This document shows positions 5,690 through 12,206 of a stretch of 64,000 nt of DNA, piece by piece. Source of the DNA: Ignavibacteria bacterium (GTDB lineage: Bacteria > Bacteroidota > Ignavibacteria > Tepidaquicellales > OLB5). The stretch lies in NCBI GenBank assembly GCA_017303675.1, contig JAFLBX010000001.1, forward strand, positions 693,970-757,969. Reading direction: 5' to 3'. The notes under the pieces are model-generated. The model ran no database searches. It had not been told where the DNA came from and was given only the letters and a program-made list of their open reading frames with translations. Made by a program: the position numbers and the translations under genes. Numbering within the stretch: the stretch's first letter is position 1; every line of letters begins with the position of its first letter.

Positions 5690-6790
5690 TCAAGCTTCAT
5701 CGGTCACTCTTGGCTGCGCGCCATACTGATCAAGCAGGATATTATCGTATTTATCAGCATTGGCAAAAAGTGTCTTCAGGTTTTCAAGACCGGTTTCATA
5801 TGTTAAATACTGGTCATAAATAAACGTGGAAAGTATCACATCCTGGTTATTTACGCTGAACATCATGCCTTCGAGGTTATAATTTTCCCTTAACAGGAAC
5901 TCATACATTGCGGCGATGTTAGATTTTGGAAGCATGCAGAGCATGCTGTCGCAAACTATGAAGCCATCCTGGTTGTAGTTGATAAAAATTTTGGCAGTGC
6001 CTTCTTCAACTTCCCAGCTATAGGGACCTTTTCGCGCTAGCTTAACATCCTTGCCAAGCTGCTCTAAAATTGTTTCAACAATTGCCGATGCCCCGGTTGG
6101 CTTGTACTCGCCTTCTTTTTTAAGCGCGGGGAACTCCAGCTTGGTGCCGCAGTTGGGGCAGTATTCGCCGGCATCAAGGCTTTCTTCTGTAACGTAAAAT
6201 CCGCAGCTCGGGCACTTCATGGTATATTTACCGAAGTACTGCCTGTATTCCTTCAGGTCTTCTTCAAGGTACTCAACCGGCAGGGCAAATCCCAGGTTAT
6301 CGCCGCCTGCAATTATGAAAGTATTCACACCAACAACATCACCATTGGAATTAACAAGGGGTCCCCCGGAATTACCCGGGTTTATTGCTGCATCTATCTG
6401 TATATAATTTATACCGCGCTGCAGGCGTTTTGATTTTGAAACAATGCCCTCGGTAGCTGTATAGTTCAGCCCGTACGGGTGGCCGATCGCTATTACCTGG
6501 TCGCCTTCTTTTACATCAAGCCCGGGCGCAAGGTTAATATCAGGCAGCTCAATGCCTTCGGGTACCTTGATAAATGCAAGGTCGTACTTGGCGTCATTAA
6601 AAAATACAGGTGATATCTGCTTGGGAAGTGATCTTCCGCTGATGACAGCTTCTGAGTTACCCTTAACCACATGATCATTGGTAATTATCAGGTTCTCCTT
6701 TTTAACATAAAACCCGGTACCAGTACCCTGCGGTGTTGCTATTTGTATAATTACATGCTGAAATTTATCTATTATATGCTGAGTATCCAT
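5690..6790 (-). CDS. Cytosolic trypsin-like serine protease with zinc ribbon and YbjN-like C-terminal domain
   Basis: 366 residues without a signal peptide. Residues 1-180 are an HtrA-like S1 protease with the full triad visible: His40 (TNDHVVKG), Asp70 (YDLAFIKV), Ser141 (NPGNSGGPL). There is no PDZ domain. A zinc ribbon follows with CPSC at 193-196 and CPNC at 211-214. Residues about 230-355 (WEVEEGTAKIFINYN, DSMLCMLPKSN, FLLRENYNLEG, VILSTFIYD, LFANADKYDNIL) look like the YbjN/Tir-chaperone-like (TY-Chap) fold, a peptide-binding domain. The gene lies 65 bp downstream of another gene with such a domain, on the same strand, so they probably form one operon. Lack of a signal peptide points to a cytoplasmic, possibly effector-type, protease. 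Confidence 0.82.
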   Translation of the reverse strand: MDTQHIIDKFQHVIIQIATPQGTGTGFYVKKENLIITNDHVVKGNSEAVISGRSLPKQISPVFFNDAKYDLAFIKVPEGIELPDINLAPGLDVKEGDQVIAIGHPYGLNYTATEGIVSKSKRLQRGINYIQIDAAINPGNSGGPLVNSNGDVVGVNTFIIAGGDNLGFALPVEYLEEDLKEYRQYFGKYTMKCPSCGFYVTEESLDAGEYCPNCGTKLEFPALKKEGEYKPTGASAIVETILEQLGKDVKLARKGPYSWEVEEGTAKIFINYNQDGFIVCDSMLCMLPKSNIAAMYEFLLRENYNLEGMMFSVNNQDVILSTFIYDQYLTYETGLENLKTLFANADKYDNILLDQYGAQPRVTDEA

Positions 6791-8118: not shown

Positions 8119-8590
8119 ATTGTTTCCATTCCCGAAAGTGCGGGAACATCTATTAATAATGTTTAATTTATCCTGTACTCATTAATATATCAAATTTTAG
8201 AGCCCAGGTATTTTTAACAATCCTGCAAAATAGTTTTTATCAATTTGTTATTCAAAGTAAAAAAGCTTCTTACCCCGGGAAAAAATTAAGGGATTGTTTG
8301 AGGGAGGTTTTTTGCTTTTCTGTATGATTACCGGTGTGGTTTCAAAATTAAAACCTAAGGCCTGCCACTAAGACTCAAAGACTCTAAGGAACACAAAGAG
8401 TGTGAATTTGAAGGCGGCATGGTCCGTTGGACCTGCCGCATATAAGAATAAAATCAAAAGCTTTTCAACACTGAGTGCACAGAGTACACGAGAAGATATA
8501 ACAGGAAAGTTAAAAGACTTGCGTAAACTGTTAATATTTTTTATGTTTGTTTATCATGCGTACGTTCCGTGCAATGCGGAGCGTTAAAAT
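8119..8590. other. Long intergenic stretch, mainly repeat remnants
   Basis: Between the divergent YbjN-like gene and the AT-rich island there is no credible gene. The stretch contains low-complexity runs such as CTAAGACTCAAAGACTC and ACACTGAGTGCACAGAG, of the type often seen as degenerate intergenic repeats in this bacterial group. It must also contain the minus-strand promoter of the gene starting at 8118. A 61-codon ORF at 8402-8587 has no plausible protein features. Confidence 0.5.
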
Positions 8591-8667
8591 AGAGGGCTTT
8601 ACTCATTGAAACACCGAATACGGCTTAGATTCGTATTGTGGGTTGTTAATGAGTAAGGCTCTTTTTT
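8591..8667 (+). terminator. Nested hairpin ending in a T-run upstream of the AIPR gene
   Basis: AGAGGGCTTTACTCATT (8591-8607) pairs with AATGAGTAAGGCTCT (8648-8662), directly followed by six T. A second, inner stem (AATACG with CGTATT) lies in the loop. Sequence shows an intrinsic-terminator shape on the plus strand. It sits at the left edge of the AT-rich island, 57 bp before the AIPR start, so it may insulate or attenuate that gene. Confidence 0.5.
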
Positions 8668-8723
8668 GTTAAAGAATAAACTAATGAAATAAATAATATC
8701 TATAATTAAATAAAAGATAAAAA

Positions 8724-10739
8724 ATGAAAGTTGAACCCATAATAAATGCAAAATTTAATAGATTTAGAGACCAATTTGATCTAAAAAAAACACCCGATGG
8801 TATCGCGTTTGAGAGGTTTGTTAACTATTCAATTTTAAGCGTACATCAACCAGATGCTTTCAACGGTGATTCCGAATTATTTGATATCATAAATGTTGGC
8901 GGTAACAATGATATGGGAATTGATGGAATAGCAATTAAAGTTAATGGGATTCTGGTTAGAAATATTGATGAGGTAAAAGACTTAGTTGAAAGGTTTAAAA
9001 GAACTACTATAGAGTTTATTTTTTTGCAATCAAAATATAAAACAAATTTTGACAAAGGTGAATATAATAATTTCTTAGATGGTGTGAGAGAATTTCTAGC
9101 TGAAAATCAAAAACAACCAAAAAACCAAGCAATTGACTATCTGCTAGAAATTAAAGACTATTTATTAAGTGAAAATGTTATATTCACGTGGGAAGATAAT
9201 CCAACTGTGCGGATTTATTACGTAGTGATGGGTAAATGGATGAATGACAGTAATTTATCTGCATTAGCTAATCAGTTTCAGGAAGATGTTGATAGGATAG
9301 GAACCTATAAGAAACCAAAAATACATTTTATAGACACTGAACATTTCAAGGAAATATTAGATTCAAATGAAAATAATTTTTCAACTATCATAAATTCGAT
9401 TGATACAATGCCCTTGACATCTGTTAGAAATGTTGAAAATTCTTGTGTGATTTTATGTTATGCATCCGAACTTCAAAAATTATTGAAAACAAGCGATGGC
9501 TTGATTAGAAAGTCTTTATTTAATGATAATGTGAGAGATTTTCAGGGCAACAATACTGTAAATGACGAAATCAGAAATACTGTTGAATTAGAGCCCGAAA
9601 AATTTGCATTATTAAATAATGGAATTACAATTGTGTGTGAGGAGTATTTGCCCAGCAACAGACAAGTGAATCTAAAAAACCCACAAATAGTAAATGGTTG
9701 TCAAACATGTCATGTTTTATATTATTCTGCAGAAAAAAGTGAAGACTTATCAAAGGTACCCGTAATCGTTAAAGTAATTGCTACTAAAAGTAACGAAATT
9801 ACAAATCAAATTGTTAGGGGCACAAATAGGCAAAATATTGTATATGATGAAGCTTTCGAAACAACCAAAAAATTTCATAAAGAATTAGAAGAATTTATCA
9901 ATGCCTTATCTAATGAATACGAAAAATTTTATTATGAGAGACGCTCAAAACAATACCAAAATAATCCAACGATTAAACAATATCAAAAACTCAATTTAAG
10001 AATTATAGTCCAATCATTTGTGGCGATGTTTTTTAACGAACCCCATGTCGCATTTAGGCACGAATTAAAACTACTTGAAAAATTTCCAAATTCTTTGTTT
10101 CAAGATCATCAATCCAAACTGCCATATTTTACGGCTGCATATGCTTTTTTTTCATTAGAAAAATTGTTTAGGAATAACCTTTTTGAAAAAAGGAATTTAT
10201 ACTCTTATCGTGCGCATGTTCTAATGGCATTTAGAGAACTTGTGGCTGGAAAAAATATCGATATAAATAACGAAAAAATGATTGACGAACATTGTCAAAT
10301 ATTACTAAAAGTATTAAAGAACGATACCGAATGTAAGAAGTTTTTTTCAAAGGCGATCGAAATATTTGAAAATTGTAAAAACATATGGATAAAAAAGAAA
10401 AGAAGAAGTATATATGGGATTAAAGACATTAAAGAATTTACTGAGTTACTTTTATTGGAAATACGAAAAATTACTAACATGAAAACTGATTCAATCAAAA
10501 CAGGAAATTTTACTTATCAAGGTGAAGTAATAAAGATTTTGAGAGACAGATATGGTAAATATTGTGGTTTTATCAAACGCAATCCCCAAAATATTTTCTT
10601 TCACTCAAAATCAATAAAAGGATTAAATGTCAATAATTTGTTAGGGAAACAAGTTACCTACAAAGTTACTACAAATCCGAAAAACAACTCTTTAGTTGCA
10701 ACTGATATAGAGTTGATTAATAATATCCTGAATATTTGA
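8724..10739 (+). CDS. AIPR-family (abortive infection phage resistance) protein with nuclease-like N-terminus and cold-shock-like C-terminus
   Basis: 671 residues, AT-rich coding sequence. N-terminus: Glu30, GIDG with Asp67, and FIFLQSK with Gln102/Lys104 form a PD-(D/E)xK-like pattern as in Mrr-type nucleases. Middle: FALLNNGITIVCEEY (about 293), NPQIVNGCQTCHVLYY (about 320) and QIVRGTNRQNIV are the core of the AIPR family, linked to phage-resistance abortive infection. C-terminus (about 598-668): GEVIKILRDRYGKYCGFIKR, NIFFHSKSI and GKQVTYKVTTNPKNNSLVATDIEL read like a cold-shock/OB fold with RNP1- and RNP2-like strands. Expected activity is cleavage of nucleic acid during infection; the cold-shock part would bind RNA or single-stranded DNA. 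Base composition differs sharply from flanks, a sign of transfer. Family call firm, nuclease and cold-shock parts inferred. Confidence 0.85.
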   Translation: MKVEPIINAKFNRFRDQFDLKKTPDGIAFERFVNYSILSVHQPDAFNGDSELFDIINVGGNNDMGIDGIAIKVNGILVRNIDEVKDLVERFKRTTIEFIFLQSKYKTNFDKGEYNNFLDGVREFLAENQKQPKNQAIDYLLEIKDYLLSENVIFTWEDNPTVRIYYVVMGKWMNDSNLSALANQFQEDVDRIGTYKKPKIHFIDTEHFKEILDSNENNFSTIINSIDTMPLTSVRNVENSCVILCYASELQKLLKTSDGLIRKSLFNDNVRDFQGNNTVNDEIRNTVELEPEKFALLNNGITIVCEEYLPSNRQVNLKNPQIVNGCQTCHVLYYSAEKSEDLSKVPVIVKVIATKSNEITNQIVRGTNRQNIVYDEAFETTKKFHKELEEFINALSNEYEKFYYERRSKQYQNNPTIKQYQKLNLRIIVQSFVAMFFNEPHVAFRHELKLLEKFPNSLFQDHQSKLPYFTAAYAFFSLEKLFRNNLFEKRNLYSYRAHVLMAFRELVAGKNIDINNEKMIDEHCQILLKVLKNDTECKKFFSKAIEIFENCKNIWIKKKRRSIYGIKDIKEFTELLLLEIRKITNMKTDSIKTGNFTYQGEVIKILRDRYGKYCGFIKRNPQNIFFHSKSIKGLNVNNLLGKQVTYKVTTNPKNNSLVATDIELINNILNI

Positions 10740-10813
10740 AAAAACTTAGAAGCAAAAGAGACGATAAAAGTAGACGATTAATCGGATGAAGTAGAGGAAA
10801 ATAATAAAATAAT

Positions 10814-11272
10814 ATGGATTTCACATTTTTTTTAGCAATTTATGGTGCGCTACTTTCTACATTAATAGCGTTTTGGAATGTTTATATCTACAGTAAAGAT
10901 AAAGGTAACCTAAAGGTTGATTGTTCATTTACATATGAAATTGGGTATCTGGCTAGAAATGAAATACATCTTTCATTTACGATAACAAATATTGGAAGAA
11001 GAGATGTAGTAGTGAAAGGTTTAGCTGGAACTTCAAAAAACAAAAAGAAATTTTTGCTCTTTGCCGGAATGAATAATACAAAATTACCTAAAACCTTAAA
11101 ACCTGGCGAATATGTTATTGAGCAAATATTTAATTATAAAGATTTGTTTTCAAACAAAATAAACACAATTTATGTTTACGATTCATTAGGTAATGAGTAT
11201 TTTGTACCTAAAAAGGATATCAAGAATATAGAAACAGAATTTTTAGCAATAAATTCAATGCAAAGACCATAG
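10814..11272 (+). CDS. Membrane-anchored small protein, beta-sandwich-like, unknown function
   Basis: 152 residues. One membrane segment at residues about 3-26 (FFLAIYGALLSTLIAFWNVYIY), then a soluble part with alternating hydrophobic residues and a conserved-looking block FTITNIGRRDVVVKGLAG, typical of a small immunoglobulin-like or beta-sandwich domain. Proteins with this plan occur as uncharacterised ORFs in accessory regions. Same strand as the AIPR gene, 74 bp after it, similar AT-rich composition, so probably acquired together. Its last codons overlap the open frame of the next ORF. Confidence 0.7.
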   Translation: MDFTFFLAIYGALLSTLIAFWNVYIYSKDKGNLKVDCSFTYEIGYLARNEIHLSFTITNIGRRDVVVKGLAGTSKNKKKFLLFAGMNNTKLPKTLKPGEYVIEQIFNYKDLFSNKINTIYVYDSLGNEYFVPKKDIKNIETEFLAINSMQRP

Positions 11273-11406
11273 AAATAGTAATATTAGATAATCGCGAAAG
11301 AGCCTTATTAATTTGGGGTGTATTTTTATTCATTTTATCTTTAACCAGTAAAGATATAAGAAAATCGTTAGTTAATTTCTTAAAGGTATTAACTTCTAAT
11401 ACTATT

Positions 11407-12156
11407 TTGGTGTCTCTACTGTTGATTACTCTCTATGTCCTTTTCTTACATTACATCTTGTGGGTAAGTCTTCTGTGGAATCCTAGTTTTATTAAGGATT
11501 CAATTTTTTGGTATTTTGGTGTTGCGATAACCTTATTCGTTAATGTCAATAAAGTAAGTGATAAATCGTTTTTTATAAACATACTTTACGACAATTTGAA
11601 AATTTTGGTTTTGATTGAATTCATTGTCAATTTTTATACTTTTAGTTTTATAGTTGAAATGATACTTGTTCCTTTTATATTATTTATTACAGTGTTAAAT
11701 GTAGGTAATAAAGTCACATATAAAAATTTGATTCTTGACAAATTAACTAATTTCTTTTTTATTAGCTTTGCTCTGATCCAATTATTCTTTATTGTTTATA
11801 AAATAGCCCTTGAATACAAGTCTTTGGTAAATTATGAGAGTTTGAATGCGTTCATACTATATCCAGTATTAACGATTATGTATTTGCCATTTATCTATCT
11901 TTTTGCAATATATTTAAAATATGATACGATTTTTATAGTTGTCAGCAGAGGGCTGAAAGAAAGGAGTTTACTAATTAAGGCAGCAAAAAAGAAAATATTT
12001 TTTACTTGCGGGCTAAATTTGAGGAAAATAAATATTTTTCATAGAACTTCTGTATATAAATTTTTTGAAGCCCAGAATTTAAACGATGTTAATGGTATTG
12101 TCTTCTATTTTAAAAATTTTTGGAAAAAATATAAAGTGCGTTACAAATCTTGTTAG
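11407..12156 (+). CDS. Integral membrane protein of unknown function, true 5' end uncertain
   Basis: From the TTG at 11407 it encodes 249 residues with about six hydrophobic segments and a basic C-terminal tail (KKKIFFTCGLNLRKINIFH). The reading frame is, however, open back to 11212, and translation of 11269-11406 gives further family-like sequence (ILDNRERALLIWGVFLFIL, SKDIRKSLVNFLKVL), so the protein very likely begins near 11269. No ATG, GTG or TTG exists in that part; an ATA at 11269 overlaps the TAG of the upstream ORF, and a -1 shift there would fuse the two ORFs. Options: ATA start, frameshift, mutated ATG or sequencing error. Third gene of the AT-rich island; function unknown. Confidence 0.6.
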   Translation: MVSLLLITLYVLFLHYILWVSLLWNPSFIKDSIFWYFGVAITLFVNVNKVSDKSFFINILYDNLKILVLIEFIVNFYTFSFIVEMILVPFILFITVLNVGNKVTYKNLILDKLTNFFFISFALIQLFFIVYKIALEYKSLVNYESLNAFILYPVLTIMYLPFIYLFAIYLKYDTIFIVVSRGLKERSLLIKAAKKKIFFTCGLNLRKINIFHRTSVYKFFEAQNLNDVNGIVFYFKNFWKKYKVRYKSC

Positions 12157-12206
12157 TTTTTGCGTGTCTTCCCCTAATTCCCCTTTAACTTGCAATCATA
12201 TTCAAA

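Follow-up and report, generated by a model that had tools for sequence, protein, structure and literature searches.

A predicted nuclease, an AIPR core and a cold-shock domain combined in an AIPR/AbiU-family protein of an Ignavibacteria genome

The window, a 64,000-nucleotide stretch of contig JAFLBX010000001.1 from an Ignavibacteria bacterium, contained an AIPR/AbiU-type gene within a variable AT-rich segment. The features identified in and around the gene were as follows.

8300 to 12165 (approximate), no strand assigned: variable AT-rich segment carrying the AIPR gene, between two conserved divergent genes (same-genus comparison, GC content)
8591 to 8664, plus strand: strong hairpin with a T run after it, some 60 bases ahead of the start codon (-35.2 kcal/mol, z -6.6)
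8724 to 10739, plus strand, stop codon included: AIPR/AbiU-type ORF of 671 amino acids (ORF listing; Pfam AIPR; PADLOC AbiU)
8724 to 9368, plus strand: predicted PD-(D/E)xK nuclease domain, residues 1-215 (structure model; FokI and MspJI matches; residue conservation)
8811 to 8813, 8922 to 8924, 9027 to 9029 and 9033 to 9035, plus strand: codons of the nuclease residues E30, D67, Q102 and K104, respectively
9411 to 9839, plus strand: ParB/sulfiredoxin-like part of the AIPR core, residues 230-372 (core model; structural matches; invariant residues)
9693 to 9707, plus strand: core motif NGCQT, residues 324-328; another core motif, NNG, lies at residues 298-300
9990 to 10481, plus strand: helical part of the core, residues ~423-586 (full-length and core models)
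10482 to 10511, plus strand: flexible linker, residues 587-596 (pLDDT below 50 for the most part)
10512 to 10715, plus strand: cold-shock domain (CSD) with a predicted OB fold, residues 597-664 (profile, family and model evidence)
10814 to 11272, plus strand: 152-aa ORF, also within the AT-rich segment (no Pfam or PADLOC family over threshold)
11407 to 12156, plus strand: 249-aa ORF of hydrophobic character, also within the AT-rich segment (no Pfam or PADLOC family over threshold)

The coordinates, frame and length of the ORF given in a preliminary description of this DNA were exact, and its assignment of an AIPR core was unambiguous. Residues 266-531 matched PF10592 (AIPR) in an hmmscan search of Pfam (E 6.6e-48, 164 bits against a cut-off of 25), and residues 6-554 matched the PADLOC model AbiU (PDLC02357; E 1.2e-102, 343 bits), which identifies the product by sequence as an AIPR/AbiU-family protein. 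The MzaE model matched residues 265-412 only, with a score of 54 bits (cut-off 1050). The C-terminal ~115 residues fell beyond both the AIPR and the AbiU model, the curated models stopping short of the tail. A genome search found this ORF to be the only AIPR gene in the source genome, and a protein search located AIPR-family genes in 91 plasmid records and 22 phage records.

Homology with same-genus genomes ended at 8299 and resumed at 12165-12182. The flanking genes were 0.3-0.8 kb apart in five same-genus genomes versus 4.1 kb here, and the GC content of the segment was 27-31% versus about 40% around it. The homology gap, the spacing of the flanks and the low GC content indicate that the segment is recently acquired or strain-variable cargo. 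The two downstream ORFs had no relatives among the neighbors of AIPR homologues and were rejected as system partners; a 205-aa ORF following the homologue L038 was unrelated in sequence and was likewise rejected. No methyltransferase was found in the segment (ORF list and Pfam), and neither TOTE-type TPR-OB nor TBP genes were present among the flanking genes in a Pfam scan. The upstream hairpin was near-perfect, occurred once in the genome and had no co-directional gene ahead of it. It matched no Rfam family over threshold, and the upstream regions of homologues had no common sequence, so it was rejected as a family-wide regulatory RNA. Near the insertion, 5690-6790 encoded a trypsin-like serine protease that also contains a stretch resembling a zinc ribbon and a region weakly similar to YbjN.

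The whole protein was modeled with AlphaFold (mean pLDDT 87). In this full-length model, the N-terminus matched the cleavage domain of FokI (Z 9.7 over 152 residues, also 9.5) and MspJI (Z 8.4 over 136 residues, also 8.2). All N-terminal matches among the best 50 structural matches were PD-(D/E)xK enzymes, and residues 1-259 matched restriction-endonuclease folds. The putative active-site residues near the N-terminus were widely kept among the 87 aligned homologues: E30 in 78, D67 in 80, Q102 in 80 and K104 in 76. In the model, E30 lay in a helix, D67 ahead of a strand, and Q102 and K104 where the following strand ends, which corresponds to a PD-(D/E)xK arrangement. The N-terminus is thus predicted to be a PD-(D/E)xK nuclease fold with a conserved E, D, (E/Q)xK site. 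The preliminary description had likened this site to that of Mrr-type nucleases; the resemblance in motif and fold stood, but hmmscan of the whole ORF gave no match to Mrr_cat (PF04471) at E up to 1, and the structural neighbors were FokI and MspJI. A direct sequence search of solved structures with the N-terminus gave no convincing match. AIPR proteins were assigned an N-terminal HEPN RNase in a 2012 review (PMC3506569). For the AbiU-type subfamily, this assignment is contradicted by the predicted model, whose fold differs, and no HEPN profile matched at E up to 1. Five tail-less AIPR relatives (L086, L088, L090, L103, and L112) had E in place of K104, giving D..QxE in the alignment, which may be a different form of the site or may reflect a shift in the alignment.

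The core (residues 215-588) was also folded separately, with a pLDDT of 92.7. Its best 17 structural matches all had the ParB/sulfiredoxin (Srx) fold, with modest Z scores of 4.0-6.6 and most of them covering 85-117 residues; the first unrelated match had a Z score of 3.2. They included ParB with CDP (Z 6.6), sulfiredoxin (5.6), SspE (4.8) and BrxU (4.5), as well as Noc, KorB, and PadC. The AIPR core is accordingly predicted, at the level of the model, to adopt a ParB/sulfiredoxin fold, a feature absent from the preliminary description. It was also the most conserved part of the protein in the 87-row alignment: N269, R271, N280, N298, N299, G300, N324, G325, C326, and Q327 were invariant in all 87 homologues. 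The invariant NGCQT, between a strand and a helix, would take the position of the DGQQR motif of GmrS and the GCHR motif of sulfiredoxin (PMC4619093). C326 was rejected as a sulfiredoxin-like catalytic cysteine; it was invariant in the 87 AbiU-type rows, but L, G, Q or A stood in its place in most of the wider AIPR family. A sequence link between AIPR and DndB had been stated previously (PMC3506569). It was not reproduced here: profile-profile comparison of the core with DUF262 and with DndB by hhalign gave probabilities of 0.1-0.2%, whereas DUF262 and DndB were joined by hhalign at 82%. The ParB/Srx relationship is therefore a claim at the fold level only. A direct sequence search of solved structures with the core gave no convincing match. 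The core may bind a nucleotide and act as a switch.

The C-terminal tail had been described as a cold-shock-like OB fold. In a search with the ORF alone, the CSD profile (PF00313) matched residues 614-655 with 17.5 bits, below the cut-off of 27; the preliminary description had thus recognized what the profile did not. The tails of homologues were more informative. Canonical CSDs occurred at the same place, 23 of 41 tailed homologues matching CSD at E up to 0.1; the best CSD match of a homologue tail had an E-value of 2.5e-21, and that of L063 scored 73 bits. The tail profile of the ORF's own clade matched cold-shock proteins of known structure at 1e-5 to 1e-4, the whole-family tail profile matched CspB at 5.8e-10, and hhalign of the tail against canonical CSD tails gave a probability of 94%. 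The PADLOC model CSD_V matched 12 of the 41 tails. In the predicted model, the five strands of a barrel were located at residues 597-607, 613-617, 624-627, 643-650, and 657-664, and the modeled tail matched the CSDs of CspA, CspB, YB-1, and Unr with Z scores of 9-11. Despite the sub-threshold single match, the homologue CSDs, the family profile and the five-stranded model together confirmed the tail as a CSD, as far as sequence comparison and modeling go. Sequence evidence, the comparison of homologues and the predicted structure likewise supported the joining of a nuclease to a CSD on an AIPR protein, as proposed in the preliminary description. Neither of the refuting outcomes that it had named, a tail lacking a five-stranded barrel or a non-nuclease fold at the N-terminus, was seen in the model.

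In a hand alignment to Bacillus subtilis CspB, we take F616, F625, and H627 to correspond to F17, F27, and H29, whereas W8, F15, and F30 of CspB are presumably not kept in the tail, so that the RNA-contact surface would be partly retained. Since the aromatic surface is kept in part, the tail likely binds single-stranded nucleic acid, but this binding may be altered. NYN-domain proteins from the same phylum end in a related CSD and were the closest sequence relatives of the tail found outside AIPR; their nuclease family is unrelated, and they have no AIPR core. Such proteins, with an NYN domain and a C-terminal CSD like the tail of the ORF, were encoded in several genomes of the phylum (L034, L035, and L036).

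Among the 87 aligned homologues, 42 had a CSD-type tail, three had an S1 domain, 40 were tail-less and two ran off the contig. The CSD tail was thus found in about half of the 85 AbiU-type relatives sampled, and the 40 tail-less ones retained the nuclease and the core, which indicates that the tail is dispensable for core function. The S1 domain was at the tail position in L107, L109, and L116, with Pfam S1 scores of up to 27.6 bits; only L116 passed the cut-off of 22, and L107 also matched S1-type NCBIfam models. The tail is exchangeable and stays an OB fold when its family differs (CSD or S1). Because S1 domains replace the CSD in relatives, the tailed branch reads RNA more likely than DNA, as these sequences suggest. 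Both the frequency of the CSD among AbiU-type relatives and the S1 alternative go beyond the preliminary description. Members of the ORF's clade came from Bacteroidota, Nitrospirota, Bacillota, and Spirochaetota; every complete one was tailed. Parsimony gave four changes among the three tail states. A single CSD clade was not rejected (p-AU 0.50), so several independent gains of the CSD are not claimed. The tails of L055, L057, and L061, from Bacteroidota and Nostoc, were in CSD register with few CSD signature residues (WYAFIRR..ENVYFD) and appeared to be diverged OB-type tails.

Several close relatives sat in defence islands. L048 adjoined a type I restriction-modification (R-M) system and Tmn, L044 a type I R gene, L053 an OLD nuclease, L046 GmrSD_N-HNH, and L038 and L042 PLD-type proteins; L039, L040 (from Dysgonomonas), and L041 stood amid ordinary genes. 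The three-part architecture of nuclease, core and CSD is well supported and marks a large branch within an already known family of defence proteins. This OB-tailed branch is apparently undescribed in the open literature searched, where AIPR combined with cold shock returned nothing relevant. CSDs or other OB modules inside defence systems are known from a retron Se72 CSD protein, CoCoNuT and TOTE/TALON (PMC11090510, PMC12458937, and PMC6868368), but with partners that differ from those in the AIPR ORF, and AIPR is unmentioned in the CoCoNuT and TALON papers.

We propose, with a probability of roughly 45%, that the ORF, on its own, encodes an anti-phage effector of AIPR/AbiU type, in which a nuclease and a ParB/Srx nucleotide switch are combined with a CSD that binds single-stranded nucleic acid. 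It could plausibly act in abortive infection by sensing RNA or ssDNA, as the preliminary description suggested. The OB tail, on its flexible linker, would engage single-stranded RNA or ssDNA from the phage; the core would change its state under nucleotide gating; and the nuclease would then be released onto nearby nucleic acid, by analogy with the DUF262 switch of SspE and GmrSD. Either cell arrest or direct clearance could be the outcome of this mechanism. SspE and GmrSD are the nearest working analogues, and the AIPR ORF at most works like them. The modeled core resembles the ParB/Srx domain of SspE, GmrSD, and BrxU, and the layout of switch and nuclease is common to both. These DUF262 NTPase-nuclease proteins, however, had no sequence-profile similarity to the ORF, which is not a member of their group by sequence; its predicted nuclease is of the PD-(D/E)xK type instead of HNH and is N-terminal instead of C-terminal, and a CSD is added. 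AIPR/AbiU proteins have long been named abortive-infection proteins, and the literature found gives no settled mechanism. The three-domain reading, with a nuclease, a ParB/Srx-like switch and an OB-fold reader, makes this question addressable by point mutants and binding tests.

Other explanations were considered. Instead of sensing a trigger, the tail might serve as an unspecialized anchor on nucleic acid, keeping the nuclease near transcripts or ssDNA, with phage recognition residing in the AIPR core. The 40 of 85 AbiU-type relatives without an OB tail keep the nuclease and core and must manage tail-less, and conservation is highest in the core, but the tails are kept in a deep multi-phylum clade, also in members with a degenerate nuclease, and so seem to have a more specific task; we regard this explanation as possible and not the probable one. 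It is rather unlikely that the protein works like a restriction enzyme, degrading incoming DNA itself instead of acting by abortive infection, with the CSD reading unpaired DNA. FokI and MspJI, its N-terminal structural neighbors, are DNA restriction enzymes, the core resembles SspE and BrxU, some relatives adjoin R-M genes, and R-M operons often contain AIPR genes (PMC2292703); against this, the segment is without a methyltransferase, and the replacement of CSD by S1 favors RNA over DNA. It is very improbable that the CSD controls expression by binding the leader RNA of its gene. The target would be the strong hairpin ahead of the start codon, but this looks like an intrinsic terminator, homologues share no common hairpin sequence upstream, and CSDs bind single strands, not stems.

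Seven Lachnospiraceae-type rows of the 87-row alignment had lost E30, D67, and Q102 and kept the core and the CSD. At six of the seven loci, the gene order was an AAA_15-family ATPase, a gene for a protein of ~226-253 aa and the AIPR gene, the last gap being 12-22 bases. The best PADLOC match of the ATPase of L064 was PD-T4-4_A (2.3e-34), and the middle protein, searched with the L060 copy, matched no known family. The ATPase, the ~226-253 aa protein and the nuclease-dead, CSD-tailed AIPR protein are a candidate three-gene system. More broadly, OB-tailed AIPR proteins could be RNA-triggered, nucleotide-gated single-chain PD-(D/E)xK nucleases distinct from SspE and GmrSD, of which the Lachnospiraceae form would have lost its nuclease and been converted into the sensing component of a system with the AAA_15 ATPase and the ~230-250 aa protein; this extended scheme is speculative and considered unlikely as a whole. 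At L058, L059, L060, L064, L070, and L096, the ATPase was encoded ~2 kb upstream of the AIPR gene.
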